The position numbers and the translations under genes were made by a program. Below are positions 18,567 through 53,207 of a DNA stretch of 64,000 bases, in pieces. Origin of the DNA: Lautropia sp. (GTDB lineage Bacteria; Pseudomonadota; Gammaproteobacteria; Burkholderiales; Burkholderiaceae_E); assembly GCA_030527825.1 (NCBI GenBank), contig JAUNAC010000001.1:186001-250000 (forward strand). Reading direction: 5' to 3'. The notes beneath the pieces were generated by a model, which was given only the letters and a program-made list of their open reading frames with translations, searched no databases and was not told where the DNA came from. Position 1 is the first letter of the stretch; every line of letters begins with the position of its first letter.

Positions 18567-18712
18567 CCGTACCAGATAGCGCTTTCAACCCCTTCATCAC
18601 GCGGTTTTTCTCACTACGATAGCGGCTGCTGTACTGCATGATTCCGGTCAGAACAGTCCTGAATCGCTTCTGTGCCGGCCGGATTTTGGCTGCCGTTCAG
18701 CCGTTGCCGTTG

Positions 18713-19039: not shown

Positions 19040-19040
19040 A

Positions 19041-28815: not shown

Positions 28816-29082
28816 TATTTTTACGCAAGACATTGCAGGCTATATCAAGAGTGCGCCATATCGTTTCTCAAGTGTCCATCCTGATACGTATTGCGGTTTT
28901 ATTCCCCAAAAACACAATTCATCAGGGGTTTTATAGTGACAGCAACTGCGTATTCATCAATAGCTTATATCAGAAATCCAATCTTTTCCCTGAGAAAAAA
29001 CGGTCATGTACATGCCGTAACAAAAAAATTCAAGCCAGCACGCATAAAATTTGTGCGTTGCCCTTTCTCATGGAATACCCTT

Positions 29083-35499: not shown

Positions 35500-35756
35500 G
35501 GATGCCGTCCTATGGAAGGGAGATCTGCCTGCCAGAAAGCCTGCGGTAGCAGAAAAAACCTGTGGGGCAAGACTTGCGCCATGCAGGCATGCGCAACAGG
35601 GCGAGCGCAACGTTACACAGCAGGCCAGAGTAGTGATTCTAGACTGGCCCGCGGTGGGGCACATGTGAATGATATCCTCTGTGCCCGCAGGTTTGACCTG
35701 TAAAGGTAGCCGGGCTACAGGTGAATTTCTGCACAACCCACGTCGGGACGCGGCAA

Positions 35757-35784
35757 CTGCCGGTCACAATCCAGTGACCGGCAG
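35757..35784. other. Perfect 11-bp stem-loop in the 341-bp gap between epsL-type and export genes
   Basis: CTGCCGGTCAC and GTGACCGGCAG are exactly complementary around AATCCA. No T-run follows on either strand, so a simple terminator is unlikely. In the transcript it would separate the two genes, possibly as an attenuator or stability element. The rest of 35500-35840 shows no gene. Confidence 0.5.
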
Positions 35785-35840
35785 CCAGGTCAAACCGGAA
35801 CAGACCATAAAACTCTCTGCCGGTCCCGGGCGACCCGAGA

Positions 35841-37178
35841 TCAGAACTGGACTTTCAGGCCAACGCCGAAAACGTTGGCGGTGTAATCAAGATTGTTCCG
35901 ATTGGAATCACGCCGCTCATGTGACAGGTTAGCCATCAGGAACAGGTTACGACGAAACTCGTAGTTTGCCTCGACACCAAGCATATAGATCTTGTCCTTG
36001 CGCTCGATCTGGCCAACGGTGAGCTGGTCACCCTTGTAGCGACGATCATATAGGCGCAGGAAGGGATCGATGGAGATTTTTCCAGTTGCCTGAATGGTCG
36101 GGCTGAAATTCAGCGACCAGGTGTCAGCGTAGGAATTCGTCACCGCATCATCATCCGGTTCGATAGAGCGGCCTAACGATGCCCTCATCTGCACGGCACC
36201 GCTCAGTGCCCATTCTGTATCGAAGCCAGCCGTCAGACCGCGAAAGTTGCGGTTGCCCTGATCGTAATCACGACGGGTGTAACCGACAAAGCCGCCTAAG
36301 CTGCTGTCTTCGCTGGGGCGGTACTGGATACGGGCCTGAAGGGAATCTTCGTTGTAGTCATTCTTGCGGCAGTTGTTGTTATTGCACAGCAATGCTGCGC
36401 CGTTGTCGTCGTAGCGCTGCGCAGATTTGTATTTGCCATCCACAGCACGATAGACCAGATCCACCTCGATACCGGTGCCCGGTGCATAGCGGACCCCGCC
36501 CTCGGCACCGGTCAGATCGTAATCAGTGTCTTTGTAGACTTCCAGTGTATTGCGGCTGCGGGTGTAATCCACTCCGCCAATCACCGACCATGCCGGGGTA
36601 AAGCGAAAGCCCGCATTGAAGAACAGATTCTGAGTGTCAATGTTGTTACGGTCACCGGACACGTTGGTCGTCTGGTTATAGACGCGATCCTGCACGGTCG
36701 GCTGCTTGCGATCGAGCCGCAGACCAGCCCGGCCGAACAGCGGCCGCCCCACAACCCAGTCCAGGGTGGTACCCACGTTGTAGCCCACGTGATCGAAGTC
36801 AGAATATTCCTTGTATTTGAAACCTTCGACTTCTGCATTGGCACGCAGACGCTGTTGACTGATCAGACGATCGAACTGGATACCCATGGCGCCATTCAGG
36901 GCTGTATCACCGGCTTTCTTGTTACTGTAGATACCTGCCTGGGACTGGTTGTTCAAACGCAACACATTGCTATCATGTGTTACGCCAACACGACCCATCA
37001 GCTTGATGACATCCGCCTCTGCGTTGGGTGTCCAGTCCTGGTCAGGTACATCCAGCTGGGCCTGGGCCTGGGCGACACCGGCCGCCAGCCCGCAGACAAC
37101 GGCCGCTACGGCAGCGCAGACAGTACGCAGTGCCGGGCGCTGGGCACCTTTTTTTTGTGTTCCGATGATTTCTTTCAT
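35841..37178 (-). CDS. EpsL-type outer-membrane beta-barrel protein for exopolysaccharide
   Basis: 445 residues. A signal peptide (CAAVAAVVCGLAAGVAQAQA) is followed by a barrel built of alternating aromatic/charged strands: VGVTHDSNVLRLNNQSQAG, AEVEGFKYKEYSDFDHVGYN, LFLMANLSHERRDSNRNNLD, ending GVGLKVQF with the C-terminal phenylalanine used for BAM insertion. This pattern matches the EpsL family seen in exopolysaccharide operons, where it may help secretion across the outer membrane. It is divergent from the initiating transferase at 37422, and the 243-bp region between should hold both promoters. Confidence 0.75.
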   Translation of the reverse strand: MKEIIGTQKKGAQRPALRTVCAAVAAVVCGLAAGVAQAQAQLDVPDQDWTPNAEADVIKLMGRVGVTHDSNVLRLNNQSQAGIYSNKKAGDTALNGAMGIQFDRLISQQRLRANAEVEGFKYKEYSDFDHVGYNVGTTLDWVVGRPLFGRAGLRLDRKQPTVQDRVYNQTTNVSGDRNNIDTQNLFFNAGFRFTPAWSVIGGVDYTRSRNTLEVYKDTDYDLTGAEGGVRYAPGTGIEVDLVYRAVDGKYKSAQRYDDNGAALLCNNNNCRKNDYNEDSLQARIQYRPSEDSSLGGFVGYTRRDYDQGNRNFRGLTAGFDTEWALSGAVQMRASLGRSIEPDDDAVTNSYADTWSLNFSPTIQATGKISIDPFLRLYDRRYKGDQLTVGQIERKDKIYMLGVEANYEFRRNLFLMANLSHERRDSNRNNLDYTANVFGVGLKVQF

Positions 37179-37421
37179 GACTACCCTGTCGTAAAAAGCT
37201 CAGAATGAGGACATGGTACAGCCTGTCGGAGTCCTCTTGGATTCCACACTAAATCATTGAGCCAAACATGCCAAGTCCCTGACTTTCGCTGCGTGAACCC
37301 TGACACATGTCTGCCAAACCGATTAACATTTGACGGCTGCCCCTGATTGGCCGGTGTTGTATAAATATCTCCAACAGATTTCGATCGGGCACGCCGACAC
37401 GGTGGCGCCCTGGCAAGCGGT

Positions 37422-38819
37422 ATGAACAGCCCACTCTTCGCTTCTTCCTTCGTTCCCATCCGGACCGGCAGCCGCAGCATTCTCTCCCTGGTCAAGTCGG
37501 TCATCGACCCTGTCCTGGCGGTCGCCTGCCTGCTGCTGGTCACCGTTGTCACCGGCCACCCGCTCCGGGCACAGGAGATGGTGCTGGCCGTGCTCACTTT
37601 CGTGCTGAGCTATCCCGGCAATGTTCCCTTCCGGGTCTACCAGCCCGGCTACCTGCGCCACCTGCTTGGCAGCTGGGGGCTGGTGGTTGGCCTGCTGCTG
37701 GTATTCGGCCTGATGATCGACGCACTGCGTCAGTTCGACCAGAATGTGCTCGCCACCTGGGTCATTGCGACGCCTGTGGTACAGGCGGTCAGTCACTGGG
37801 TTTCTCCACGGCTGTTGCACAAGGTCATTTCCATGCGGCCGGAGCAGACGGCCATCGTGGTGGCTGCCAATAGCCTGGGTCGCACACTGGCCCGCTCCAT
37901 TCAGGATGATCCGCTGTCGCAGACGCGCATCATGGCCTTTTTTGATGACCGCACACCTGACCGGCTGGGCGAAGTCACCGAAGCCCCCGTCGCCGGCGGT
38001 TTCAATGCGGTGGCCCAGTTTGTCCGCGCCAACAAAATCGATCAGATTTTCATTGCCCTGCCCATGGCCTCCCAGCCGCGGATCCTGAAGCTGCTGGAAG
38101 ACCTGCGCGACACCACCGCCTCTATCTACTTTGTCCCCGACATCTTCATGTTCGACCTGATCCAGGCGCGGGTGGATTCAGTGGGCGGGTTGCCGGTGGT
38201 GGCCGTCTGCGAGACGCCCTTCTACGGCACCACTGGCGTACTCAAGCGCCTATCGGACATTGTCATCGCCTCCATTGCACTGATACTGACCCTGCCCATC
38301 ACGCTGGGCATCGCGCTTGCCATCCGCCTCACATCCAAGGGCCCCATCATTTTCAAGCAGCGCCGCTACGGGCTGGACGGTTCAGAAATCAATGTCTACA
38401 AGTTCCGTTCCATGCGTGTACAGGAAAACGGTCCCGAAGTGCGCCAGGCCACCAAGAACGATGACCGCATCACACCGGTGGGCCGTTTTCTGCGCAAGAC
38501 CTCTCTGGATGAGCTGCCACAGTTCTTTAACGTGCTACAGGGGCGCATGAGCGTCGTCGGCCCCCGTCCCCATGCAGTGGCCCACAATGAAACTTACCGC
38601 AAGCTGATCAAGGGCTACATGATCCGCCACAAGGTCAAGCCCGGCATCACCGGACTGGCACAGGTCAACGGCGCCCGCGGCGAGACCGACACCATCGAAA
38701 AAATGGAACTGCGCATCCGTTACGACCTGGAGTATCTGCGGCACTGGTCGCTGCGGCTGGATCTGAAGATTATCCTCAAGACCATCCTGGTTTCATTTCG
38801 CGATCCAAACGCTTACTGA
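37422..38819 (+). CDS. Undecaprenyl-phosphate sugar phosphotransferase (WcaJ/EpsB type)
   Basis: 465 residues: four N-terminal membrane helices, a Rossmann-like CoA_binding_3 region (AIVVAANSLGRTLARSIQDD), a fifth helix (LSDIVIASIALILTLPITLG), then the catalytic domain with KFRSMRVQENG, FLRKTSLDELPQFFNVLQG, MSVVGPRPHAVAHNE and KVKPGITGLAQVNGARGET. It moves a hexose-1-phosphate, usually glucose, from UDP-sugar to undecaprenyl phosphate to start repeat-unit assembly. Divergent from epsL; the polymerase and flippase are not in the window. Confidence 0.93.
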   Translation: MNSPLFASSFVPIRTGSRSILSLVKSVIDPVLAVACLLLVTVVTGHPLRAQEMVLAVLTFVLSYPGNVPFRVYQPGYLRHLLGSWGLVVGLLLVFGLMIDALRQFDQNVLATWVIATPVVQAVSHWVSPRLLHKVISMRPEQTAIVVAANSLGRTLARSIQDDPLSQTRIMAFFDDRTPDRLGEVTEAPVAGGFNAVAQFVRANKIDQIFIALPMASQPRILKLLEDLRDTTASIYFVPDIFMFDLIQARVDSVGGLPVVAVCETPFYGTTGVLKRLSDIVIASIALILTLPITLGIALAIRLTSKGPIIFKQRRYGLDGSEINVYKFRSMRVQENGPEVRQATKNDDRITPVGRFLRKTSLDELPQFFNVLQGRMSVVGPRPHAVAHNETYRKLIKGYMIRHKVKPGITGLAQVNGARGETDTIEKMELRIRYDLEYLRHWSLRLDLKIILKTILVSFRDPNAY

Positions 38820-39022: not shown

Positions 39023-39063
39023 CTAACTCATCAGTCATTTAATTGGAAGAGAAAACCGCCACG

Positions 39064-39960
39064 ATGACGACTCACCCTGTTGCACTTGCTGCCCGCCCTG
39101 CCCGTGACGTTGTACCTGCCATGCCGTCACTGGGCAATCTGGACGCCTACATCTCTGCGGTCAATCGCCTGCCGATGCTGTCCGCCGAGGAGGAGTCCAG
39201 CCTCGCACGGCGTTTCAAGGCGCATCAGGATGTCGACGCAGCACGTATGCTGGTCACATCCCATCTCCGTCTGGTCGTTTCTGTCGCACGGCAGTACCTG
39301 GGCTATGGCTTGCCTCATGCCGATCTCATCCAGGAAGGCAATATTGGTCTGATGAAGGCCGTCAAGCGGTTCGACCCGGATCGTTCCGTGCGACTGGTTT
39401 CCTTCGCAATGCACTGGATCAAGGCAGAAATCCATGAATACATTCTGAAAAACTGGCGTCTGGTCAAGGTGGCCACCACCAAGGCCCAGCGTAAACTGTT
39501 TTTCAATCTGCGGTCGATGAAAAAGGATCTGGACGCGCTGACTCCCGAGGCCGTCAGCGATATCGCCCAGCAGCTCAATGTCCGCGAAAAAGATGTGCTG
39601 GAGATGGAGACGCGGATGACGGGCCACGAGATTGCGCTTGAACCACAAGGCGATGACGAAAGCGGCTCTTCGTTTGGTCCGGCTGCCTACCTCGCCGCAT
39701 CCGGCAGCGAGCCCAGCGAAATCATCGAGAACCGTCAACGCGACTGGCTCCATAGCGAGGGGCTCTCCCATGCTCTGGCCAGCCTTGATGAGCGCAGCCG
39801 CAAGATTGTTGAGTCGCGCTGGCTGCGTGACGAGGATGAAGGCGGCTCACGCACCCTGCAGGATCTGGCCAGTGAGTACGGCGTCTCCGCCGAGCGTATC
39901 CGGCAGATTGAAGCGCTGGCCATGAAAAAGATGAAGGCAACCTTGGCGCAGTACGCCTGA
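39064..39960 (+). CDS. rpoH: RNA polymerase heat-shock sigma factor RpoH (sigma-32)
   Basis: 298 residues from the ATG at 39064; a TTG at 39043 in frame is a less likely start. Region 2: LVTSHLRLVVSVARQYLGYG, LIQEGNIGLMKAVKRFDPD, VSFAMHWIKAEIHEYILKNW. QRKLFFNLRSMKK is the RpoH box that distinguishes sigma-32 from RpoD and is a target of chaperone/FtsH control. Region 4 is TLQDLASEYGVSAERIRQIE. It directs core polymerase to chaperone and protease promoters. Single gene, closed by a terminator. Confidence 0.95.
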   Translation: MTTHPVALAARPARDVVPAMPSLGNLDAYISAVNRLPMLSAEEESSLARRFKAHQDVDAARMLVTSHLRLVVSVARQYLGYGLPHADLIQEGNIGLMKAVKRFDPDRSVRLVSFAMHWIKAEIHEYILKNWRLVKVATTKAQRKLFFNLRSMKKDLDALTPEAVSDIAQQLNVREKDVLEMETRMTGHEIALEPQGDDESGSSFGPAAYLAASGSEPSEIIENRQRDWLHSEGLSHALASLDERSRKIVESRWLRDEDEGGSRTLQDLASEYGVSAERIRQIEALAMKKMKATLAQYA

Positions 39961-40184: not shown

Positions 40185-42254
40185 ATGGCACTCGTCATTG
40201 AAACACGCTCCCCTCATGGCCCAGTCTCCCGCACCCACCTGCGGGCAGGTACCACTCGCCTGAATGTGCGACCCGGCGAGACATTCCGCATTTATGACGA
40301 GGATACCGGTCAGGCCCCCGCCCATGCCTTGGTCAAGCAGCTGGACAACAGCATCCTGGTCGAGCATCTTGCCGACAGAGATGGGCAGGGCCAGCAGGAC
40401 GCCCAGACGGTCGAACTGCTGGGGTTTTACAGCTCATGCAGTGTGAGTGACCCCTGCCACCTGGAACTGCCTGGCAGCACCCCCGTCGATATCACCCCGT
40501 CCACTGCCGCCATTGGTGCCTTGTCCGATGGCACCTTCGTTCTGTACGACCCGGCCCATCCGGCCGCCACTGCCAGCGGCGAGCCGGCCGGATGGGCCGG
40601 CAATCCCGCATCGGGCGACCACAATGCGCACATCAGTGCGGACGCAGGCACACATGACGAACCGCTGATCTCCGAGTCCACCCGCCCCATCATCTATGGG
40701 CTGGGTGGCGCAGCGGTCCTGGGGCTGGCCCTTGCCGGGGGTGGCGGGGGCGGGGGTGGTGGAAATGATTCCGCGACATCCAGCTCGCCGACGTCGCCCG
40801 CTTCTCCTGCTGCTCCGCCTGCGCCGGCCGTCACACCGACAGGGTCGGATCCTGCCCTGACCGTCACACATGCATCGGTTGCCAAGGGCGCCACCCCGAC
40901 CCTGACAGGAACGGGCACGGCAGGCGCCACCATCCAAATCGACGTTCATGCAGCAGGCACCAGCACCGTGGATGCCGCCTACAGCGTCACCGTGGGTGCC
41001 GATGGCAAATGGTCTGCCAACCTGGCCACACTGAAACCGGCGACGGGAACACTCCCGGCGGGCGGTCTGAGCACCGCTACCAGCCTGTCACTCACGGAAA
41101 ATGTCAACGGCAAGGCTTCCAGCCTGCCCGACTTCCATCTCACGGCAGATGACACGCCACCAGCCGCGCCAACATTCAATCCGGTGGGCAACGACAATCT
41201 GCTGGGCGCCTCAAGCCATGACGGGCCCCTGAATATCTCCGGCCATGGCGATGCCGGTAGCCTGATCAAGCTGACACTGGGTGCGCAGACACATGAGGCC
41301 ACGGTGGGCGCCGACGGCGCATGGGCAGTCACCGTACCGGCTACGGCCCTGCCGGCTGATGGCAATACGCAGCTCTCAGTCACGGCCAGCGATCTCGCCG
41401 GCAATGTGTCCAAGGCCACGACCCAGACTCTGACCATCGACACCACGCCACCCGCAGCACCTGTCATCCAGGCAACCGGCGGCAATGACCATTACATCAA
41501 CGCGGCAGAGAAAGCCGCTGGCGTGACGCTCTCCGGCAGCACAGAACCCGGCGCAACACTCAAGGTTTCCCTGGGTGGGGCTGCGCATGACGCGTCAGTA
41601 GGTGCAGATGGCAAGTGGAGCCTACTTCTGGGCAGTGCCGACCTGCCCGCGGACGGGAACTACACGGTCACGGCCACGGCGACCGACAAGGCCGGTAATG
41701 TTTCCGCGCCTGCAGCCGGCCAACCATTGACAGTCGATACCAAAGCTCCTGTTCTGACTGATGTTCACGCAGGAGACAATGACCGCATTCAGGGAGGCAC
41801 CTTCCTGATCAGTGGCAAAACGGAATCTGGCGCCACCGTCAAAGTGGAATACAAGCTTCTGTCGGGCACCACGCAAAGCCAGGAGGTCAAGGTTGCAGAT
41901 ACCGGGGGCGATGCCGTTCCCTGGGCCATTCCAGATCCCATCGTGGCCATCCCCCCCCTCCTGGGCGCAACTGAAGTCGTTGCGCACATCACGGCCACTG
42001 ACAAAGCAGGCAACTCGACTGCACTCGACCACCATTTTTTGCTGCTGTCCCAGAATTTTCCGTTCGGCCCGAGCAATTCCCTCAAGACATTGGGGCTGGA
42101 TGATCTTTCCAGCTCGGCCCACGACACCCCCGCGCCCAGCAGCACTCATCCCCAGAGCATCGCAACAGCGGCGACCAACCCCGGCAGCACCGCACAGGAC
42201 GTTGCACTGCTCGCGCCTCTGGATGAGCACGCGAAGGGTCTGACCCTGTCCTGA
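40185..42254 (+). CDS. Ig-like repeat envelope protein, paralogue 1
   Basis: 689 residues from the ATG at 40185 (MALVIETRSPHGPVSRTHLR). Residues ~1-110 are a beta-rich domain shared with the two next genes: LNVRPGETFRIYDED, NSILVEHLADRDG, LLGFYSSCSVSDPCHLEL. GALSDGTFVLYDP and the hydrophobic helix GLGGAAVLGLALA with nine glycines follow at ~180-205. Four Ig-like repeats come next (AGATIQIDVHAAG, DDTPPAAPTFNPVG, DTTPPAAPVIQATGGND, DTKAPVLTDVHAGDND). The tail has SLKTLGLDDLSSSAH. There is no cleavable signal peptide; layout recalls BapA-type type I-secreted adhesins. Function unknown. Confidence 0.8.
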   Translation: MALVIETRSPHGPVSRTHLRAGTTRLNVRPGETFRIYDEDTGQAPAHALVKQLDNSILVEHLADRDGQGQQDAQTVELLGFYSSCSVSDPCHLELPGSTPVDITPSTAAIGALSDGTFVLYDPAHPAATASGEPAGWAGNPASGDHNAHISADAGTHDEPLISESTRPIIYGLGGAAVLGLALAGGGGGGGGGNDSATSSSPTSPASPAAPPAPAVTPTGSDPALTVTHASVAKGATPTLTGTGTAGATIQIDVHAAGTSTVDAAYSVTVGADGKWSANLATLKPATGTLPAGGLSTATSLSLTENVNGKASSLPDFHLTADDTPPAAPTFNPVGNDNLLGASSHDGPLNISGHGDAGSLIKLTLGAQTHEATVGADGAWAVTVPATALPADGNTQLSVTASDLAGNVSKATTQTLTIDTTPPAAPVIQATGGNDHYINAAEKAAGVTLSGSTEPGATLKVSLGGAAHDASVGADGKWSLLLGSADLPADGNYTVTATATDKAGNVSAPAAGQPLTVDTKAPVLTDVHAGDNDRIQGGTFLISGKTESGATVKVEYKLLSGTTQSQEVKVADTGGDAVPWAIPDPIVAIPPLLGATEVVAHITATDKAGNSTALDHHFLLLSQNFPFGPSNSLKTLGLDDLSSSAHDTPAPSSTHPQSIATAATNPGSTAQDVALLAPLDEHAKGLTLS

Positions 42255-42557
42255 GCGGTTTCCGTCCCGGAACCGGTGCCGGATCCCCGCGAGGCTACCA
42301 GGCCCCGGCTTCGGTCTGTCCCTCGTCCGTAACAAAACACAACACTCAGCACACAAAGCAACAGCTTTTGCGTGCCAGAATCCGGGCAATCCGTATTCAT
42401 TTTTTCGACGAAGGGCCGGATCCGTCCGCTGAACGGTGCCCAGTGTCTCCCAGGAGCATCAGACAGGCCGCTGTTTGGCGGACTTGTGCCACATGCATGC
42501 GCTTCAAGACCACTGACCGAATCCGGGCACCGTCGGACACCGAGATAGGACAGGATC

Positions 42558-45272
42558 ATGGTAGCAAGACTGAATATCCAGCGTACGGGCGGCGGCGCTG
42601 CAGAACACATGCCGCTCAAGCCCGGCAATAACCGGCTCAAGGTTGTGCCTGGACGGCAGTTCATCCTCCAGGATCCTGACGGGCACGGCATCGACCCGGC
42701 ACAGTTGCGCGTGATCCAGGTGGAAAACGACCTGGTCATCGAAAACATTCCCGTCGCGGACGGCGCCGAACCGGCAACGATCACGCTGGAAGGCTACTAC
42801 CAGGTCTGCAGCGCATCTGACCGCTGTACGGTCAGCGTCGCCAGCCATGCCGGCGCCGGCGACGAGGAACAGACCGATAACGGGCAGGCAGGTCTTGGCT
42901 CGACCGACAACAGCCCGACCGAGGTACTGGCCGATGTGGACAGCAAGCCGCTGGGCGCCCTGGCCGACGGCACTTTTGTGCTGTATGACCAGAATTTCCA
43001 GGCCCCGGCGCAGCCCACGGCAGAAGAGTTTCCCATCCGTCCGGTTCTGTATGGCGCCGGCGGGCTGGCCGTCGTTGCGCTGGCGGCTGCGGGCGGCGGA
43101 GGCGGTGGTGATCCTAGCGGAGCCCCCGATCTGGGCAACGTGCCCCTGGCGCTCAAATCAGCCACTTCATTCAACAATCGCTTTCCCACCATCTCCGGCA
43201 CCGCCAAACCCGGCACGATCGTGACGCTGCGGCTCGATACCGACAATGATCAGCGCGAGAACGTCACCTACAGCGCCACGGCCGATGCAAACGGCAACTG
43301 GAACGTGAATCTGCAGACGGCTAAACCGGCTTCAGGCACATTGCCAGCCAACGGTCTGTCAGACAGCAACACGCTGGAGATCTCCGGGGCGCTGGACGGC
43401 GTCCAGGGGGCAGCGCTGCCGATTGTCACCCTGACGTACGACAACACCCCGCCGGCGCGCGCCGAGATCGGCGCCATCGCCGACGACAACATCATCACCG
43501 CCGCTGAAAAAACCGCCGGTGTGACCGTCTCGGGAACGGCCGAAGCCAATGGTTCAGTCGAGGTGAAGATCGGCAGCACCACCAAGGTCGCCGCCGTGGG
43601 CGCCGATGGCAAATGGAGTGCCGCACTGTCGGCTGCAGAACTGCCCGCTGCCGATGGTCAGTACCAGCTCACCGCCACTGCCATCGACGCGGCCGGCAAT
43701 CGTGGCCCGGCCGCGACCAGCCCGGTCACCGTCCATACCAGCAGCACCACGCCAGTCATTGGCAGCATCGCAGGTAACGATATTATCAACGCTGCTGAAG
43801 CTGCAGCCGGCGTCAAGCTGCAGGGGTCGGCCGAAGCCGGTTCGAAGGTCGAGCTTACCTTTGGTACCAGCAAACTGGCTGCCACCGCTGATGCCAACGG
43901 CCACTGGGAAGTCACTGCACCGGCCACTACCCTGGCCGACGGGGCCCAGACCCTGACCGCGGCCGTCACCTCTCCCACGGGCGGCACCGCCTCTGCCTCC
44001 CGCGCCTTTACCGTCGACAAAACCGCACCACCCAAAGCCAGTGGCATCAAGTTCGATGGCGGCGACACCACGATCACCGCCACCGAGGCCCGTGACGGCG
44101 TGCACATCACCGGCACAGCTGAAGCCGGCGCAACCGTTTCAGTCACATGGAACGGCCACACTCATACTGGCACAGTCAGCAACGCAGGCGCCTGGGACGT
44201 GCAGTTCGTGCCGGCAGATTTACCCCATGCTACTGCGGGTAGTACCGTCAACAGCGCCGTTCAGGTGACGGTTCAGGATACCGCTGGCAATACCAGCGGT
44301 GCCGAGTCGGTCGACGTCACCGTTCAGGGCGCACCCACACCGACTATTGCACCGAGTACCACCGTCTCAACCCCGGCGGCATCAACCCCCGCTGCAGCGG
44401 CCAGCCCGACCCAGACAGCACCCGGTTCATCCTCGGCCTCGAGCCCGGATGCTGACGCTGGCAATACCACGACAACGGGAAATACCACGACTGGCAATAC
44501 CACGACGGGTGGCACCGCCGGAGGTTCGGCTATGAGCGATGCCAGCGCGGGCGGTGCAACTGCGGCTGGAGATACCACTACCACCACGGGCGGTGCCACT
44601 GGCAGCGCGGCTGCGGGTGGTGCTGCCGCTGGCACCAATACGGCTACTGATGCAAACGCAAGCGCGTCTGCTGGCACCACCGGTACGACGGGCAATGCCA
44701 CGGGTGGAGCCACTGGCAGCACTGTCACCGGTGGCGCTACCAGTGGCGCTGCCGCTGGTACCACGACAGATACGGATACCAGTGCGGCTGCAGGTACAGA
44801 AAACGCTGCGGGTGCAACAGCCAACAGTACGACAACACCGGCGGCGGCCACCTCCCAGAACACCACGAACGCCCCAGCCGCATCGGACTCGCTGAGCGAC
44901 ACGTCCGTCACCCTGGTACCCACCACCAACACCACCACGGTCAACAACACCACAACAACACTCAGCAGCCCGGCAAACACCACAACAACTGGTAGCAGTG
45001 GCAGCAGTGCCACGCCTGCCGCGAGTGGCGCCAAGACACCTGCCGCCAGCAAATCGCTGGTGGACACTTTGCACGACAGCGGCACCGACAACACACACAA
45101 GAGCCTGACGTTGGATGATCTGACCCACAGCCACGCACAGACGCACACGGCTGCCACACCCGCACCGACACCCGTTCCCAGCGCGCCGCCCCCGGCCCCC
45201 GCCAGTACCACGGCCACCGTCGATTCGCTGGTCAGTGCACAGCCCTGGGAGCACCCGCACCCAACGGTGTAG
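42558..45272 (+). CDS. Ig-like repeat envelope protein, paralogue 2, with Thr/Gly/Ala low-complexity stalk
   Basis: 904 residues. The shared N-terminal domain is clear: NNRLKVVPGRQFILQDPDG, LRVIQVENDLVIENIPVADG, LEGYYQVCSASDRCTV, then GALADGTFVLYDQ and the helix-glycine hinge (GAGGLAVVALAAAGGGGGG). Four Ig-like repeats follow (~residues 195-590). Residues ~594-790 are low complexity (NTTTTGNTTTGNTTTGG and GGAT-type units), then KSLTLDDLTHSHAQTH and a proline-rich end finishing SLVSAQPWEHPHPTV. The 303-bp gap before it has no gene. The ribosome-binding region AGGACAGGATC-ATG is almost the same as that of paralogue 3. Confidence 0.8.
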   Translation: MVARLNIQRTGGGAAEHMPLKPGNNRLKVVPGRQFILQDPDGHGIDPAQLRVIQVENDLVIENIPVADGAEPATITLEGYYQVCSASDRCTVSVASHAGAGDEEQTDNGQAGLGSTDNSPTEVLADVDSKPLGALADGTFVLYDQNFQAPAQPTAEEFPIRPVLYGAGGLAVVALAAAGGGGGGDPSGAPDLGNVPLALKSATSFNNRFPTISGTAKPGTIVTLRLDTDNDQRENVTYSATADANGNWNVNLQTAKPASGTLPANGLSDSNTLEISGALDGVQGAALPIVTLTYDNTPPARAEIGAIADDNIITAAEKTAGVTVSGTAEANGSVEVKIGSTTKVAAVGADGKWSAALSAAELPAADGQYQLTATAIDAAGNRGPAATSPVTVHTSSTTPVIGSIAGNDIINAAEAAAGVKLQGSAEAGSKVELTFGTSKLAATADANGHWEVTAPATTLADGAQTLTAAVTSPTGGTASASRAFTVDKTAPPKASGIKFDGGDTTITATEARDGVHITGTAEAGATVSVTWNGHTHTGTVSNAGAWDVQFVPADLPHATAGSTVNSAVQVTVQDTAGNTSGAESVDVTVQGAPTPTIAPSTTVSTPAASTPAAAASPTQTAPGSSSASSPDADAGNTTTTGNTTTGNTTTGGTAGGSAMSDASAGGATAAGDTTTTTGGATGSAAAGGAAAGTNTATDANASASAGTTGTTGNATGGATGSTVTGGATSGAAAGTTTDTDTSAAAGTENAAGATANSTTTPAAATSQNTTNAPAASDSLSDTSVTLVPTTNTTTVNNTTTTLSSPANTTTTGSSGSSATPAASGAKTPAASKSLVDTLHDSGTDNTHKSLTLDDLTHSHAQTHTAATPAPTPVPSAPPPAPASTTATVDSLVSAQPWEHPHPTV
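44463..44506 (+). repeat. Coding minisatellite in paralogue 2
   Basis: AATACCACGAC occurs three times at 44463, 44481 and 44496, encoding NTTT units. Spacing of 18 and 15 bp keeps the frame, so slippage would change the stalk length without breaking the gene. Confidence 0.7.
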
Positions 45273-45650
45273 GACAACTCGCACCGACCCGCCATCAGGC
45301 GGCCCTGGGCACGATGTCTGCGCCGCCTGACGGACACTCAGCGCGGACGAACTGCGAGCTGCTGCGCCGCCTGCATCCAAAAAAACAACAAAAGCCGCCC
45401 TGCCTGACACCTGAACAGGCAATCCATGACACTCCCTCCGCTGGAAATGTGGGCAGGTGTAACCTATTTTGATAGGCTTGCACACGAAAGATACGGCGCC
45501 TTCTCTGTGTACCCGGAGGCGCTGGCGGGCTGCTGCACGCGTTGATCGCACCCGGCAGCGCCGCATGACCCACGGAACCGCTGTCACCTGTACCAGGCAA
45601 GGCGGCTTCGGATATTTCCACCGGAATTCCCTGCATAACGGACAGGCATC

Positions 45651-48600
45651 ATGGCAGCAAGACTGGATATCTATCGTTCACAGGATGGCGGCATCGAACA
45701 CCTCAAACTCAAGCCTGGCGTCAACCGGGTGCGGGTTGTCCCGGGCCGGCAGTTCCGGCTGCAGGATCTGGGGCAGGAAGCTGAACAGCTGCGCGTGCTG
45801 CAGGTCGATAGTGACCTGGTAATCGAGAACCTGCCAGCGGATGGCAGTGGGGAGGCCACCTCACTCATCCTCGAAGGCTACTACCGGGTCTGCAGTGCAT
45901 CGGATCAGTGTGCCGTGCTCGCCGGGGGCGATGAGCACGTGAGCATTCCGGCTGCTGTGCAGGGCGACGGCGGCGCCGTCCTGCTGGCTGATGTCAGCAC
46001 CAAGCCCCTCGGCGCCCTGTCCGACGGCACCTTCGTGCTCTACGACCCGACCTTTGAAGCGCCCAGCCTGCCGGTGCTGGGCGATGCATCCATCCGGCCG
46101 GTGCTCTACGGGCTGGGCGGCGCTGCCGTCCTCGGCCTGGCCCTGGCCGGCGGTGGGGGTGGCGGTAGCGGCGATGGGCAGGCACCGCAGGGCAACATCT
46201 CACTGACGCTGAAATCGGCCACCACCTTCAATACGCGCTTTCCGACCATCCAGGGAACGGCCCAGCCGGGCTCAGAAGTGCAGGTACGCATCGACACCGA
46301 CGGCGACCAGCACGCCAATGTCACCTACACAACCACCGCGGATAGCAGCGGCAACTGGTCCGTCAATCTGCTCACCGCCCAGCCAAGCAGCGGCACCCTG
46401 CCCGCAGCGGGCCTGTCTGACAGCAACAGCCTCGAAGTCACCGGCAGCCTCCAGGGCGTGCAAAGCACGCTGCCGATCACCACGCTCAGCTTTGACGACA
46501 CCCCACCGGCCAGTGCCACCCTCTCGCCGATCACGGGCGACAACATCATCACCGGCCCCGAAAAGGCGGCCGGCGTGCAAATATCCGGTACCTCCGAAGC
46601 CAACGGCTCAGTGGAACTGAAGATTGGCAACACAACCAAGGTTGTGGCGGTCGGTGCCGACGGCAAATGGAGCGCCACCCTCTCGCCTGCGGAACTGCCT
46701 GCAACCGATGGCCAGTATTCACTGACGGCCACCGCCATCGACGCGGCCGGCAACCGCGGCCCCGCCACCACGGGCAAGATCACGCTGAACACCACCGGTA
46801 AACTGGCTGTCATCGGATTGATCTCGGACGACAACATCATCAATGCCGCCGAAGCAGCGGCACCGGTGAAAGTGTCCGGCACGGCCGAGGCCGGCAGCAA
46901 GGTATCGCTCTGGCTGACCGACAAGGAACATCCACTTGCAGAAGTACAGACCAGCGCCAATGGTGAATGGACCGCCAATGTGCCCCTGCCGACAACGCTG
47001 ACCGATGGCGTCCACACACTGTCCGCCACCACCACCAATAGCCTGGGCAATATCGCCACCAGTGCTCAGGCGTTCACGCTCGACAAAACCCCGCCAACAC
47101 CGGCCACTGGCGTCAAGGTTGAGGGTGGTGACAATGTCATTACCCGGCAGGAAGCCAAAAACGGCGTGAGCCTGAGCGGTTCCGCCGAAGCCGGTGCGAC
47201 CGTCACTGTCTCGATCGCTGGCGGCAAGACCCACACCGCCACGGCCGATGCCAGTGGCACCTGGAAAGTAACCTACACCGATACCGAACTGCCGCTGCCC
47301 ACCGCCCCAGGAGACAACAAGGCGGCCAGCTTCGACATTGTGGTACAGGACGCCGCCGGCAACCAGAGCCCCCACGTGACGCAGCTGGTCACCCTGCAGG
47401 GGCCGCTGCTCGCCACGACAACCCCCACAATCAGTGCTATCACCGGCGACAACATCCTCAATGCAGCTGAAGCCGCCTCGCCCGTGCCCCTGTCCGGCCA
47501 TACTGAAGCGAACGCAAGCGTCAAGGTCACTACCGACACGGCCACCGTCACGACCACCGCCGACGCTGCGGGCAACTGGACGGTTCCGGTCAACCTGGGC
47601 GGCCTGGCTGATGGCCAGCATGCCGTAACAGTTACCGCTACCGCTGCCAACAAGACGGCGGCCAGCGTATCCGTCAACCTGCTCGTGGACAAGACCCCAC
47701 CGGGCCAGGTCACCCATATCACCACCCTCGGCGGTGACACCACCATCAGTGCCGATGAAGCCAAGGGCAACGGCAAGATCAGCTTCTCTGGTGACATGCC
47801 AGCCGGATCCCAGAACACCGACAAGGTGAACGTCACCTGGGGCGGCAAGACCGAAACCGCCACCGTGACGGGCAACAAATGGAACGTGGACTTCGACCAT
47901 GCCACGCTGCCGACGGTGACGGCAGGCCAGAAAGCCATAGCCAATGTCGAGGTCACCGTACAGGATCAGGCGGGCAACACCGGTGCCAAGGCGGCGCAGG
48001 CGATCACCATCGAAAGTGCCGTCGTGCCAAGCACTGCGCCCACGGTGAACCCGATCACCGGAGACGACCGGATCAACAAAGCCGAAAGCATGCAGCTGCA
48101 GGAGATCGGCGGCAAGGCTCAGGCCGGTGCCCTGATCAATGTGCAGATAAACGCCCAGGACAAAGCCACCGCCACTGCCGGCGCCGACGGCAGCTGGGCA
48201 ACCAAAATCGACTTTTCCAAAATCACCGATGGCTCCCACCCGTTCCTGGTCACCGCTACGCTGCCCGGTGGTACGGCCTCCCCTGCGGTAACCCATACGG
48301 TCATCGTCGACAAGACTCCACCTGACAAACCGAAGAACATCCAGTCCACCGACGGGATCGACATCTCGGCTGCCGCCGCTGCCGATGGCGTCGGTTTTAC
48401 TGGCACCGCCGAGGCTGGCAGCACCGTCACGGCAAAATGGCATGGCAACACCGTTCCCGTCATGACCAAAGCAGACGGCAGCTGGAGCATTACGATCGGG
48501 GCTGCCGATATGCCCAAGCCGGCCGCAGGGGCCAAGGTCACCAGCACACTCTCGGTCACGGCCACTGACGCTGCCGGCAACGCCAGTGACCCTGGCGAAC

Positions 48601-49367
48601 TGACCGTCACCATCAATGGCGCCCCCCTGCCCGTCAACAATGCCCTCCCCCAGAACACCACCCGGAGTGCCATAACCGACGCCTCAGACAACGTTGCCAA
48701 TAGCGCTGGCCATGACAACACGCCAGGCGCCAATCCCATCGCCAAGTACACCAACCTGAAATTCGACGGACATGACAGCCACATCATCACCGCAGCAGAG
48801 GCCAAGGATGGGCTGACGATCAGTGGTGATGCCTCACCTGATACGCACGTGGATGTTACGCTGGACGGGAGCACCGCAACGGCAACGACCGATGCCGATG
48901 GCCACTGGTCAACCACCATCCAGACCCTACCGGCTGCCACCACCAACCCGTCATCCTTCGCGGTTGACATCACCCTTCGGGACGGCACGGGCCAGAAATC
49001 ACAAACATGGAATGAAACCGTCCAGCTGGAAGCCGAAAACCAGGTGTCTGCAGCAGCTCCAGGCAGCGCGTCTCCCGCCGCCGGAGCCGTCGTCGACCCC
49101 ACCGGAACAACCCATGCTGGGAACGCAGCGGCAGGCCAGACGCTGGAAAGCACCCGCTCCAGTGCCGGGACGCAACCTTCTGCGCTGCTGGCGCAGACGC
49201 TGGCCGGGCACAGCGATACCCTGGCCGCGTCGGGGGATGGCAACACAGCCGCGACACCGGCGCCGGGCGAAAGCAGCACCGTCCAGAGCATCAGCCCTAG
49301 CAGCACACTGGACACGCTGCTGGGTACCCAGCAGCCATGGGAAACAGCCGCCTACCCGACGCTGTAA
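45651..49367 (+). CDS. Ig-like repeat envelope protein, paralogue 3 (largest)
   Basis: 1238 residues. N-terminal domain: GVNRVRVVPGRQFRLQDLG, LRVLQVDSDLVIENLPADG, LEGYYRVCSASDQCAVLAGG, GALSDGTFVLYDP; then the hinge GLGGAAVLGLALAGGGGGGS at ~165-185. Nine Ig-like repeats of ~85-105 residues follow, most opening DKTPP or ITGDNI/ILNAAEA and carrying AEAGSxV and GADGKWSA-type strands. Its end, STLDTLLGTQQPWETAAYPT, resembles the paralogue 2 tail. No RTX motifs or cleavable signal seen. The 378-bp gap before it has a hairpin (45402-45422) but no gene. It converges with the OmpA-like gene. Confidence 0.8.
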   Translation: MAARLDIYRSQDGGIEHLKLKPGVNRVRVVPGRQFRLQDLGQEAEQLRVLQVDSDLVIENLPADGSGEATSLILEGYYRVCSASDQCAVLAGGDEHVSIPAAVQGDGGAVLLADVSTKPLGALSDGTFVLYDPTFEAPSLPVLGDASIRPVLYGLGGAAVLGLALAGGGGGGSGDGQAPQGNISLTLKSATTFNTRFPTIQGTAQPGSEVQVRIDTDGDQHANVTYTTTADSSGNWSVNLLTAQPSSGTLPAAGLSDSNSLEVTGSLQGVQSTLPITTLSFDDTPPASATLSPITGDNIITGPEKAAGVQISGTSEANGSVELKIGNTTKVVAVGADGKWSATLSPAELPATDGQYSLTATAIDAAGNRGPATTGKITLNTTGKLAVIGLISDDNIINAAEAAAPVKVSGTAEAGSKVSLWLTDKEHPLAEVQTSANGEWTANVPLPTTLTDGVHTLSATTTNSLGNIATSAQAFTLDKTPPTPATGVKVEGGDNVITRQEAKNGVSLSGSAEAGATVTVSIAGGKTHTATADASGTWKVTYTDTELPLPTAPGDNKAASFDIVVQDAAGNQSPHVTQLVTLQGPLLATTTPTISAITGDNILNAAEAASPVPLSGHTEANASVKVTTDTATVTTTADAAGNWTVPVNLGGLADGQHAVTVTATAANKTAASVSVNLLVDKTPPGQVTHITTLGGDTTISADEAKGNGKISFSGDMPAGSQNTDKVNVTWGGKTETATVTGNKWNVDFDHATLPTVTAGQKAIANVEVTVQDQAGNTGAKAAQAITIESAVVPSTAPTVNPITGDDRINKAESMQLQEIGGKAQAGALINVQINAQDKATATAGADGSWATKIDFSKITDGSHPFLVTATLPGGTASPAVTHTVIVDKTPPDKPKNIQSTDGIDISAAAAADGVGFTGTAEAGSTVTAKWHGNTVPVMTKADGSWSITIGAADMPKPAAGAKVTSTLSVTATDAAGNASDPGELTVTINGAPLPVNNALPQNTTRSAITDASDNVANSAGHDNTPGANPIAKYTNLKFDGHDSHIITAAEAKDGLTISGDASPDTHVDVTLDGSTATATTDADGHWSTTIQTLPAATTNPSSFAVDITLRDGTGQKSQTWNETVQLEAENQVSAAAPGSASPAAGAVVDPTGTTHAGNAAAGQTLESTRSSAGTQPSALLAQTLAGHSDTLAASGDGNTAATPAPGESSTVQSISPSSTLDTLLGTQQPWETAAYPTL

Positions 49368-49445
49368 TCCAGATGATTCCGGCTGGGGCCAGGGGCCCTG
49401 GCCATCGCGGACACGGCATGAAAAAGCCGTGGATGACAGCGACGG

Positions 49446-50915
49446 TCAGCCGACGATGATATCGACCCGGCGGGCACGCTGCAGAATCGCCTTATCAACG
49501 TGCGTCCTTTCCCGCACCTGTCCGGCGCCGATGATCGTGATTCGGGCAGACGAAAAGCCCCCTTCGCGAATGGCTGCAGCCACGGCCCGGGCCCGCCGCT
49601 CGGAGAGCGTCTTGTTATAGGCCGCGGCATAACGCGGATCGGCATGACCCGTCACACGCACCCGGGCGGTACGCCCCAGACAGCTCCCCAGCCGCTGCAG
49701 GCGTCGGCTTTCGGCCAGCGACAGATTGGCACTGCCAGAGACAAAAAACACTGGAGAAGCCAGGCGCTTGAGCGAAACCGGGCAGTTGCCTGCACTTTTC
49801 TGGGCAATGTCGCGGGCGGCAGTCCGGTTGGAACGATCATTCTCGCGGCCACGATGCCGGCCTCTGGCGGTAGGCGCATCGGCCAGCCAGCGCCCATTCC
49901 CTGCCGGGGCAGACCGCGCACCACTGCCTGATGCCCGGGCCCCCCCGCTGCCGGCGGGCGTTCCTCCCGAGCCTGCCACGGGCAAGGCGGCGCCCGGCTG
50001 GGCGGCCGCGCCGCCTGGCTGGACCCGATAGCCCGACGGCACCTGGGCGCGGATCAGGGCAAGCGTCTCCTGGGCCTGGGCTGGCGTGCCCTTACCACTG
50101 ACCACCTCCACCACATCGCCCCGCACACGCAGTTCACTGATGTTACGTTCACGCATCAGCGCTACCAGGGCGATAAGCTGCGGTTCCCAGCGGGCAGCCG
50201 CATGGCCATCCACATGGCCCAGGCGCAGAGCACCGTCTACCGGAGCACCGCGCGCCCCCAAGCGGATGGCGTTCATCCACTGGTTGCGGGTATCGTCATC
50301 GGGCACCGTACCCGACAGACGGATTCCCCGGGTCGGATCCTGCACGAAAACGAACGACAGTGGGCCGGGCAACTCGATCATGGCATTGCCCCGGGCGGGC
50401 GCCGGCGCAGACGCATCCTGGCCGGTAGCCATCAAGGACTCACCAGCTGGCAACACCGGCCCCACCGCATCCCGCGTTGCAGCCGCTGTGGCCGCCTCCC
50501 CGTTCCGGGCGCCAGGCCGGGCAGCCTCGCGCGCCGCCAGATCAGTCATGGACTCGCCAGCGGTAATGCCCTCCCCCACCGAGGAACGCTGAAAATCTCT
50601 GCCTGGCGCCAGCCCCGCCCGTTCAGCACGCGCCCCGGTAGCGGGCCCGTCACCAGCCGCAGCCGGCCCCCGGCCTGCTTTATCAGCCGCCGATGGCAGG
50701 CCGGCAGCCGGGAAGGCAACCGCTTCAGTATGGGTATGCGCAGCCTGCGCGCGTTCCTGCTGCGCCGATGACGGGGTATGCCCTTCGCCATCACCTCCCT
50801 CATGCAGGCCGAACAGCGTCAGCAACAGCAGGAATAGGAGCAGGATGCCCACCTTCACCGAGGTGAAGCGGCGCACAGACTCGGGCGGATGCAGTGGCGA
50901 AGGCGCTGATGACAT
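49446..50915 (-). CDS. Membrane-anchored OmpA-like peptidoglycan-binding protein
   Basis: 489 residues. A short cytoplasmic start, then one membrane helix (VKVGILLLFLLLLTLFGL, ~residues 21-40) puts the rest in the periplasm. A long Ala/Gly/Pro-rich linker (~45-170) leads to a BON-like domain (SFVFVQDPTRGIRLSGTVPD, ISELRVRGDVVEVVSG), another linker, and a C-terminal OmpA domain with VRVTGHADPRYAAAYNKTLS and ERRARAVAAAIREGG. It would tether the inner membrane to peptidoglycan, as MotB or TolR-like proteins do. Second gene of an operon with the coiled-coil protein, facing the Ig-like genes. Confidence 0.8.
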   Translation of the reverse strand: MSSAPSPLHPPESVRRFTSVKVGILLLFLLLLTLFGLHEGGDGEGHTPSSAQQERAQAAHTHTEAVAFPAAGLPSAADKAGRGPAAAGDGPATGARAERAGLAPGRDFQRSSVGEGITAGESMTDLAAREAARPGARNGEAATAAATRDAVGPVLPAGESLMATGQDASAPAPARGNAMIELPGPLSFVFVQDPTRGIRLSGTVPDDDTRNQWMNAIRLGARGAPVDGALRLGHVDGHAAARWEPQLIALVALMRERNISELRVRGDVVEVVSGKGTPAQAQETLALIRAQVPSGYRVQPGGAAAQPGAALPVAGSGGTPAGSGGARASGSGARSAPAGNGRWLADAPTARGRHRGRENDRSNRTAARDIAQKSAGNCPVSLKRLASPVFFVSGSANLSLAESRRLQRLGSCLGRTARVRVTGHADPRYAAAYNKTLSERRARAVAAAIREGGFSSARITIIGAGQVRERTHVDKAILQRARRVDIIVG

Positions 50916-50953
50916 GGCGTTTCTGCGTCAATGACGGGCGAGTCGGTGACAGA

Positions 50954-52345
50954 TCAGGCGGGGTAATGCGGGTCAGTGCCCTCGCCGGCCGACACGGACT
51001 CCGGCGTGGCCGGCTCTGGTCGTAACACATCGGCAGAGCCAGCCGCACGACGGTTGACAAAAACCGGAGCCAGCGGGCCGGCTGGGCCGTCTTCATACTC
51101 ATCACCCGCATCAGGCTCCCACACCACAGACTGCTGGTCGAGCGTGGCTTCCACACCATCATCGCTGGCTGCCGAACCATCGCCCTGACCAGCCTGTAGC
51201 GCAACATCCACCGCCATGGGCACACCCTCTGCAACAGATGACCCGCTGGCCTCATCGACCATCACGCTGTTTGCTGATGCGTTGGCCGCGCTGCCTGCCT
51301 GAGCATCTTCTGCCTGGGTCATGGGTGGTGACTCATCCGCCCGATCAGCGGATGACGCCGCCCCTGCCAGTGGCTCGTTCACAGATCCCTCAGGCGGTTG
51401 CGGCGCGGTCTGTCCCTGACGGATGGCTGCCAGCAGGTGCTCGGCCACGTGCTCACGCTGCTCCCCATTGAGCTCGGCCTGAAGCTGATCCAGCCCCACC
51501 CAGTCTTCTGCCAGCAGCATGCTGGCCTGCTCCGCCCAGCTCATCGGATTGGCCAGTGCCAGCCTTGGCCCCGCACGCTCCATCAACCGGGTCAACTCAC
51601 CAACCGGTGTTTCGGCCAACCGCTCAAAACTGCGGATACCCGCCTCCTGCAACAATTCGGCCACCTGCTCATCGATGCCGACTAGCGCCTGCAGGCGGTC
51701 ATGACCATCGGCCGTGTAGTAATGCTGGCGCAGCAGATGTTTTGTCGCAGCGAATCCGGCGGCATCACGGGCCATGCGGCTCGCATGATAGTTGACAGAC
51801 GCCTCCCGGTCGGCAACCTCATGCTCCCGGCTGAGAATGCGGGCCTCCCAGCTTTGCATGGCCTCTTCCCGGTTACTGACAACCGCCATGCGCCGTCCCA
51901 GCTCCTGCTCGGTGCTCTCCAGCGTGTCGATGCGGCGGCTGTAATTGATTTCCTTGCTCCGAAGCTGCTCACCCCGGCTGGCGATCTCCTTGTCCCGCTC
52001 GTTCAGGGCCAGACCCATCCGGTCCAGATCTGCCCGCCGCTTCTCAATAGCCTGCTCGACACGACTCAAGTCATCGGAACGCTCTTCAACACGGCGCGCC
52101 TGCTGCAGCAATTCGGCATCGCGGCTGGCCAGCGATGCCTGCAGATCGGCCATTTCCCCTTCCCGCAACCGGAGCGCAGACTGCCGGTGTCCGAGCTCTG
52201 TCTGCTGTGCTTCCAGGGTGGCTTCCTGCCGGGCCAGCGCCTCGGCCTCGTCCTGGGCTTTCTTGCGCCAGTACAGAAAGTCAATGGCGAATTCAATAGC
52301 CCAGCCAATCAGCAGGCCAAGGACAAGCCAACCCAGTGCATTCAT
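50954..52345 (-). CDS. Membrane-anchored coiled-coil protein with helix-hairpin-helix domain
   Basis: 463 residues. An N-terminal helix (MNALGWLVLGLLIGWAIEFA) anchors it; residues ~30-190 form a long charged coiled coil (ERSDDLSRVEQAIEKRRADL). At ~205-275, DGHDRLQALVGIDEQVAELL, AGIRSFERLAETPVGELTRL and MSWAEQASMLLAEDW resemble the helix-hairpin-helix module found in proteins annotated as flap-endonuclease-1-like; no nuclease residues are evident. The last ~170 residues are acidic and disordered. The module probably sits in the cytoplasm. Transcribed just upstream of the OmpA-like gene (38-bp gap). Function unknown. Confidence 0.75.
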   Translation of the reverse strand: MNALGWLVLGLLIGWAIEFAIDFLYWRKKAQDEAEALARQEATLEAQQTELGHRQSALRLREGEMADLQASLASRDAELLQQARRVEERSDDLSRVEQAIEKRRADLDRMGLALNERDKEIASRGEQLRSKEINYSRRIDTLESTEQELGRRMAVVSNREEAMQSWEARILSREHEVADREASVNYHASRMARDAAGFAATKHLLRQHYYTADGHDRLQALVGIDEQVAELLQEAGIRSFERLAETPVGELTRLMERAGPRLALANPMSWAEQASMLLAEDWVGLDQLQAELNGEQREHVAEHLLAAIRQGQTAPQPPEGSVNEPLAGAASSADRADESPPMTQAEDAQAGSAANASANSVMVDEASGSSVAEGVPMAVDVALQAGQGDGSAASDDGVEATLDQQSVVWEPDAGDEYEDGPAGPLAPVFVNRRAAGSADVLRPEPATPESVSAGEGTDPHYPA

Positions 52346-52427: not shown

Positions 52428-53105
52428 TCAGGCGGCCAGTAACTGCTTCAGATCACTGACAATGTCACCGACGGGGTCAGTGTAGCGCACCAGCAGCCGC
52501 AACTTGCCATTTTTATCAATAACATAGGATGCCGCGGTATGGTCAAGCGTGTAGCTGGAGCCATCCTGATTCGGTACCTTCTGAAAAAAGACGCGAAATT
52601 CACGCGCAGCCTTTTTCGTGGCCGGCAGATCACCCCGCAACGCGATGAAAGATGGATCAAAGGAGTGCACATAAGCCTGCAGCACCTCGGGCGTGTCGCG
52701 CTCGGGATCCAGCGTCACAAAGACTACCGCCAGCCGCTCGCCCTGGGGCCCCAGGGCGTCCCGGATCTCCTTGGCCTTCAACAGCGTTGTGGGGCAGATG
52801 TCCGGGCACTGGGTAAAACCGAAAAACAACAGTACCACTCGCCCGTGGAAGTCCTTCAGCGTCACGGCCTTGCCGGTGCTGGCATCGGTCAGCGCCAGCT
52901 CCTGACCATAATCGGCTCCCTGCAGGTCGGTGGACTTGAAATGCATCTGCTTCTCTTCGGTACAGGCCGACAGGGCAGCCAGCGCCCCCCCGGCGCCTAG
53001 CCACAGGGCCGTGGTCGGTGCGAACGAAACCAGCAGACGCCGGCGTGGTTGCGAAGGAAGGCTCGGAGCAGACAGCGGCCCCTTGGAAGCAACGGTTGTT
53101 TTCAT
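52428..53105 (-). CDS. SCO1/SenC/PrrC-family copper chaperone for cytochrome oxidase
   Basis: 225 residues from the ATG at 53105. The N-terminus ends in a lipobox-like LAALSAC. The thioredoxin-like domain has the copper-binding CPDICP in LLFFGFTQCPDICPTTLLKA and the third ligand histidine in YTLDHTAASYVIDKNG. It delivers copper to the CuA site of subunit II of aa3-type oxidase in the periplasm. Last gene of the bioC-hairpin-ctaA-ctaB-sco run. Confidence 0.92.
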   Translation of the reverse strand: MKTTVASKGPLSAPSLPSQPRRRLLVSFAPTTALWLGAGGALAALSACTEEKQMHFKSTDLQGADYGQELALTDASTGKAVTLKDFHGRVVLLFFGFTQCPDICPTTLLKAKEIRDALGPQGERLAVVFVTLDPERDTPEVLQAYVHSFDPSFIALRGDLPATKKAAREFRVFFQKVPNQDGSSYTLDHTAASYVIDKNGKLRLLVRYTDPVGDIVSDLKQLLAA

Positions 53106-53207
53106 GGCCCGGAGGAAAGCGTGATCAGCGCGGCAGACAGACTCCGCGCCAGACATCGGAAGGAGATGTTAACGCAGGACTGGCTCGCCATGATGCCGGA
53201 TGATGCG

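Follow-up and report, generated by a model that had tools for sequence, protein, structure and literature searches.

Ig-repeat proteins and an adjoining HhH-OmpA gene pair in Lautropia: candidate type I-exported adhesins and a probably separate envelope module

A stretch of 64,000 nucleotides from the genome of a Lautropia sp. (contig JAUNAC010000001.1, positions 186,001 to 250,000; hereafter the window) carries five adjoining genes, and the question is whether these genes form a single envelope system. Three tandem paralogues, here called IgA, IgB and IgC, encode proteins with immunoglobulin-like (Ig) repeats, and a convergent gene pair encodes an OmpA-domain protein and a membrane-anchored coiled-coil protein with a helix-hairpin-helix (HhH) domain. 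A preliminary description of the window regarded the five genes as a unit. All five were confirmed as intact open reading frames (ORFs) at the positions in Table 1, and they probably belong to two modules: Bap/BLP-type adhesins that are exported by an unlinked type I system, and a separate HhH-OmpA module. The assignment of the Ig proteins to Bap/BLP-type adhesins with a split locus rests on the exporter genes adjacent to related Ig genes, the exporter located elsewhere in Lautropia, the lack of another recognisable substrate, and homology to a Providencia adhesin.

The relatives of Lautropia point to the exporter class. When a profile of the three N-termini was used to search 74 genomes of the family (9 Lautropia and 65 others), their common domain was found in 25 genomes, comprising 8 of the 9 Lautropia genomes and 17 of the 65 others. 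Stretches were fetched and genes were called in all 17 of the latter, with the matches G010:C200 and G048:C562 left out, and type I exporter genes (TolC, an ATP-binding cassette [ABC] protein of the LssB/LapB class, and HlyD) were located on the Ig stretch in 13 of the 17. A dedicated type I exporter beside the Ig genes of close relatives is one of the two outcomes that the preliminary description had named as refuting its unit interpretation. Several Ig/type I stretches, including those of G045, G050 and G068, are cut by contig ends; the Ig and exporter parts both lie at contig ends in G062 and G067, and the stretches of G038 (a weak match) and G044 showed no type I genes. Exporter genes adjoin the Ig genes in none of the 8 Lautropia genomes that have Ig genes. 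Across the family sample, an LssB-class ABC protein exceeded the cut-off in 24 of the 25 genomes with the N-terminal domain versus 12 of the 49 without it (Fisher p = 1.5e-9, with genomes that are not independent). A wider N-terminal profile matched 7 of 399 genomes of the order (4 Lautropia, 2 of the same family and 1 elsewhere), and a first contig scan with IgA as the query gave no relative. At L179 (genome G159, another family of the order), this N-terminal domain was seen in a frame of 2490 aa.

A genome-wide search for a type I secretion system, as proposed in the preliminary description, located the LssB-class ABC gene of the source genome at C2:1212636-1214717, on the contig that also carries the Ig genes and approximately 0.98 Mb away from them. 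LapBCE-type genes are absent from the locus, as had been stated, but present elsewhere in the genome. Family models confirm TolC, ABC and HlyD at this site, TolC scoring below its cut-off. Among the candidates scored, each of the 9 Lautropia genomes has one LssB-class ABC protein over the cut-off, and TolC, ABC and HlyD genes occur together in all 9, on stretches of 13-20 kb whose other genes, read by eye, include those for cytochrome c maturation; the Ig N-terminal domain was found on 0 of these 9 stretches. Apart from the Ig proteins, no adhesin-type substrate can be recognised in the source genome, because all 17 Ig-repeat matches of the whole genome fall inside IgA, IgB and IgC, and RTX repeats were found in 0 of the 9 Lautropia genomes; this is an argument by elimination.

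The lineage of the exporter was addressed by two ABC trees. A tree of 30 rows with no outgroup could not decide the orthology of the Lautropia and Ig-linked exporters. The larger tree, with 39 ABC proteins including 9 plasmid-borne relatives, places the Lautropia exporters in one clade and the Ig-linked exporters of sister genera in another (n = 12, including G062 and G067, in which the linkage is broken by contig ends). Judged from this tree, the Lautropia exporter is of a different lineage from the Ig-linked exporters of its relatives, which speaks against a simple relocation. The Lautropia exporters group, on long branches, with a Pantoea agglomerans plasmid exporter (98/95), and the plasmid relative nearest by identity among those listed is the exporter of Pantoea sp. 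SOD02 (46%).

The architecture of the Ig proteins bears out the likeness to BapA/LapA-type adhesins that had been noted. Ig-type repeats (NF033510, over the cut-off) occur as 4, 4 and 9 stretches in IgA, IgB and IgC, respectively, and the N-termini of IgA and IgB are 57% and 47% identical to that of IgC, in agreement with the three paralogues originally described. Together with the MpAFP RII match (Table 1), these repeats provide the tandem Ig-like feature of Bap/BLP-type adhesins, and calcium probably stabilises them. The Blp2 model NF040520 matches IgA residues 351-516, that is, the Ig repeats alone and not the Lautropia N-terminal domain. A hydrophobic Gly/Ala-rich stretch precedes the repeats and peaks at approximately 1.6 on the hydropathy scale, compared with 2.0-2.5 in the OmpA and HhH membrane proteins. 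An additional Ig gene with the same N-terminal domain is located on another contig of Lautropia genome G020 (L109:7962-10718).

At the C-terminus, the TIGR03661 cut-off is narrowly passed by 3 of 9 relatives' proteins with the same N-terminus, and serralysin/RTX-like matches were found in others. Tail motifs, the patterns of which were written post hoc, are present in 10 and 11 of the 19 Lautropia proteins that remained after 3 of 22 had been left out (two cut by contig ends, one broken by N), and in 1 and 0 of 37 others. The motifs were rejected as a mark of exporter lineage: they are present in Lautropia and Pantoea SOD02, yet absent from P. agglomerans, Providencia and the long ORF of a Proteus locus, and P. 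agglomerans lacks them although its exporter groups with those of Lautropia.

The N-terminal domain is interpreted as a diverged form of the prefix domain found in Bap-type adhesins. With a 22-row profile of this domain, hhalign matched a type I adhesin of Providencia at E = 5e-7 (prob 92.5), and hmmsearch gave 22 bits; the Pantoea SOD02 adhesin matched more weakly (E = 1.8e-4), and a Vibrio fluvialis adhesin did not match, each being a single comparison. By this measure the domain is homologous to the N-terminal domain of the Providencia adhesin. AlphaFold predicted a strand-rich domain at approximately residues 1-90 (predicted local distance difference test [pLDDT] of the block 77-94; mean of the model 73), followed by a disordered Gly-rich end, with short helices only. 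No Pfam or NCBIfam match had its best stretch inside the Lautropia domain, the model matched nothing among viral structures at E up to 0.001, the profile had no credible match among PDB sequences, and a plasmid search with the domain gave no match.

The second module is most likely a recurrent separate one, as indicated by the distribution of the HhH-OmpA pair. Both genes are present in all 9 Lautropia genomes, and when named genomes were scanned with the HhH profile, all 7 loci retrieved were from Lautropia, including L. dentalis KCOM 2505. The preliminary description proposed a search for co-occurrence of the N-terminal domain with the pair, and it named a wide occurrence of the pair without the Ig genes as its other refuting outcome. 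Both refuting outcomes were observed: as to the second, the pair is on none of the Ig stretches of the 17 non-Lautropia genomes, and it occurs without adjoining Ig genes in 8 non-Lautropia genomes, two of the same family (G009 and G046), four of another family of the order (G195, G232, G266 and G295) and two of the class (G782 and G822). In 6 of these 8 pairs the HhH gene comes first, with gaps of 16-76 bp, and the gene neighbourhoods of the 8 differ. Neither the Ig N-terminal domain nor a type I cluster was found on any of the 8 pair stretches, that of G822 being only 3.4 kb. At the genome level, G009 is without the Ig N-terminal domain, G046 has it on other contigs, and none of G195, G232, G266 and G295 belongs to the 7 genomes that matched the wider profile; G782 and G822 lay outside that search.

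Membrane-anchored HhH loci outside Lautropia have an adjoining OmpA-domain gene in 8 of 15 cases (frames read by eye), and some of these loci, L033 among them, lie close to the end of a contig or of the locus. The counts from the HhH profile are lower bounds, covering the best 4-5 candidates per genome at E up to 1e-10. A restriction of full-length HhH proteins to Lautropia and G009 was considered and rejected, since membrane-anchored HhH frames occur in more genomes; the remaining HhH matches are mostly in frames resembling ribosomal protein L21 with an HhH tail, in agreement with the NCBIfam L21 entries. A plasmid search with the HhH protein gave no match. The pair, often with a BON domain, has varied neighbourhoods (L030, L160, L172-L174, L196 and L200), and membrane-anchored HhH proteins were seen on short stretches without an OmpA gene (L033 and L034 [both genome G045], L197-L199, L202 and L203). 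No description of the pair was found in a search of the open-licence literature, and the recurrent pair is apparently undescribed.

The two proteins of the pair agree with the earlier account of convergent OmpA and membrane-anchored coiled-coil/HhH genes. The OmpA domain matches at E = 3.5e-13, and each protein has a single hydrophobic stretch, starting near residue 19 in the OmpA protein and near residue 3 in the HhH protein. The central domain of the OmpA protein was modelled at a pLDDT of approximately 90, and its best Foldseek match in the PDB is the N-terminal domain of OmpATb (2kgs; E = 5.7e-4, probability 1.00, 18% identity), followed by Rv0899 (2l26; E = 2.2e-3). Pfam BON was not found in the window protein; outside Lautropia, 4 of 7 OmpA proteins encoded beside HhH genes exceed its cut-off, and that of G009 falls just short of it. 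In the HhH protein, a hydrophobic N-terminus is followed by an extended coiled coil and then by the HhH-type domain; its DUF4332 and NusA-repeat matches are both sub-threshold, and the cut-offs of HHH_5 and DUF4332 are exceeded by its homologue in G009. The positive-inside rule predicts the topology of membrane proteins, and on this basis the OmpA domain probably faces the periplasm and the HhH domain the cytoplasm.

Among known systems, Acinetobacter Bap and BLP1/BLP2 resemble the Lautropia proteins in having an N-terminal motif, Ig repeats and several paralogues per genome, and BLP2 has 728 aa and four repeats (PMC4647330). The Providencia and Pantoea plasmid-borne type I Ig adhesins share a homologous N-terminal domain, and their loci include TolC-ABC-HlyD together with an OmpA-family gene; unlike in Lautropia, the exporter is beside the adhesin, and no HhH gene is among the annotated neighbours. 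The Pantoea sp. SOD02 locus encodes a giant Ig-like protein, an OmpA-family protein, a second OmpA-like protein, ABC, HlyD and TolC. Adhesins of the LapA/BpfA class are exported by type I systems, and the bpfA cluster includes an OmpA-type gene (PMC4523816). This class has LapG/LapD, whereas no member of the LapG family (PF06035) was found in any of the 9 Lautropia genomes, in a search whose control was detected in 1 of 14 genomes; LapA-type release is therefore unlikely. SiiE is an Ig-repeat type I adhesin with the envelope accessory proteins SiiA/SiiB and an N-terminal coiled coil (PMC6272769); the coiled coil is not seen in the Lautropia N-terminal model, and the SiiE exporter, unlike that of Lautropia, is in the same locus. 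OmpATb/ArfA (Rv0899) has a BON-like domain followed by an OmpA domain, as does the window OmpA protein, a likeness of fold alone at the identity given above.

Several observations weigh against the two-module interpretation. In 7 of 9 Lautropia genomes the pair adjoins the Ig genes, an arrangement that favours some link. The exceptions are G016, in which the contig ends inside the OmpA gene and no Ig gene was found, and G017, with none in the remaining 3.1 kb of contig; in G014, a 378-aa ORF was called between the pair and the Ig genes. G016 (81% complete) also has the exporter. The NCBIfam scan recognised no type I C-terminal domain, including TIGR03661, in the window Ig proteins, and the post hoc tail motifs failed on fresh adhesins. 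The BapA prefix model NF033677 matched 0 of 9 Lautropia genomes and 3 of the 74 in the family, all below the cut-off, and a joint clade of Lautropia and Ig-linked exporters was rejected (p-AU 6.9e-5). The synteny inside the genus is the part of the unit claim that stood, and it would fit a single five-gene system in which the OmpA and HhH proteins anchor, gate or position the Ig proteins while these pass through the type I exporter or once they have done so; the OmpA-type protein encoded in the bpfA cluster and SiiA/SiiB would be the parallels. OmpA-family genes, as annotated, are present within 9-kb flanks in 4 of 6 annotated type I loci of other bacteria (L205, L213, L214 and L216; not L212 and L215), and the absence of LapG means that another retention control could be needed. 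Such a system is nevertheless unlikely: outside Lautropia the pair and the Ig genes occur separately, on different contigs even in G046, which has both; the pair is convergent to the Ig genes and comes after Sco/CtaB/CtaA on the same strand; and the Pantoea SOD02 OmpA protein matches the OmpA end alone of the window protein's profile. The five-gene unit was dropped as the default in view of the exporter-linked relatives and the recurrence of the pair elsewhere, and the membrane-anchored HhH and OmpA pairs found in more genomes lowered its odds, as well as those of the takeover of retention considered below. It is similarly improbable that the pair, as a module of its own, also serves the Ig proteins in Lautropia.

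A further explanation does without type I export: the Ig proteins would remain in the envelope or exit otherwise, with the Gly/Ala-rich stretch as a membrane anchor. The hydrophobic stretch ahead of the repeats, the lack of a recognised type I C-terminal domain and the lack of an exporter gene beside the Ig genes of Lautropia would agree with it; the exporter adjacency in relatives, the profile homology to a type I adhesin and the lower hydropathy peak of the stretch do not, and we consider it very unlikely. An equally speculative idea, with only a slim chance of being correct, is that the HhH-OmpA pair is an undescribed envelope module tying peptidoglycan through the inner membrane to a cytoplasmic target, perhaps nucleic acid, which in Lautropia was brought beside Bap-type adhesins whose own exporter had given way to an unlinked one from a different lineage, and which took over retention in place of LapG/LapD or SiiA/SiiB.

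Under the preferred two-module interpretation, the three Ig proteins would be surface adhesins or biofilm-matrix proteins that leave the cell without a signal peptide through the distant LssB/LapB-class TolC-ABC-HlyD system. Calcium would stiffen them outside the cell, and the prefix domain and Gly-rich hydrophobic stretch, emerging last, may keep each of them attached to the outer membrane. A matrix role would agree with the exopolysaccharide genes nearby. The HhH-OmpA operon would produce two inner-membrane proteins, the BON-like and OmpA domains of one reaching the peptidoglycan and the coiled coil and HhH domain of the other lying on the cytoplasmic side, so that the pair may act as a membrane-wall tether.

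Table 1. Positions of the five genes and neighbouring features in the window
Feature	Position	Strand	Description
IgA	40185..42254	+	689 aa: N-terminal prefix domain, Gly-rich linker, 4 Ig-type repeats
IgB	42558..45272	+	904-aa paralogue; 4 repeats; long Ser/Thr/Gly/Ala-rich stretch
IgC	45651..49367	+	1238-aa paralogue; 9 repeats; match to MpAFP RII (4p99, E 1.2e-21)
N-terminal prefix domain and Gly-rich stretch	IgA 40185..40754, IgB 42558-43109, IgC 45651-46172	+	
OmpA-domain protein	49446..50915	-	489 aa: hydrophobic N-terminal helix, low-complexity linker, OmpATb/BON-like domain, C-terminal OmpA domain
HhH protein	50954..52345	-	463 aa, membrane-anchored, coiled-coil and HhH domain; 38 bp upstream of the OmpA gene, same strand
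EpsL-like outer-membrane protein, exopolysaccharide cluster	35841..37178	-	Below the EpsL cut-off
WcaJ-type sugar transferase	37422..38819	+	
Sigma-70-family gene (RpoH by reading)	39043..39960	+	Between the WcaJ and Ig genes
SCO1/SenC gene	52428..53156	-	HhH-OmpA pair comes after, same strand

The source genome, of the genus Lautropia, is 2.8 Mb and 99% complete. The five genes are real and under purifying selection, as judged from a third-position excess in all five and from ratios of nonsynonymous to synonymous substitution rates (dN/dS) of approximately 0.19-0.37 for all five against genome G015, values that are rough because dS exceeds 1. An alternative TTG start 48 bases upstream lengthens the IgA ORF, and relatives align from the ATG at 40185. 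Promoter-like sites (3 vs 1.7 in shuffles) and terminator-like sites (18 vs 8.8) were not used as evidence. Exopolysaccharide genes (polysaccharide export, EpsL-like and WcaJ) adjoin the Ig genes at 34678-38819, and a WcaJ homologue adjoins the Ig genes in 13 of the 17 non-Lautropia genomes. Elsewhere in the window, positions 16802-23113 hold a small type II CRISPR system with cas1, cas2, a cas9 gene for 1042 aa and 26 array repeats spaced 66-67 bases apart, and long ORFs at 15788-16774 and 28891-29976 have no Pfam match at E up to 1e-4.

A literature search pairing Lautropia with adhesins and type I secretion returned a review alone. The present analysis names candidate surface adhesins and a candidate exporter for Lautropia, a common oral genus. 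It also shows that an adhesin should not be discounted as a type I substrate for want of an adjoining exporter, and the recurrent HhH-OmpA pair is set apart as a subject for study in its own right.

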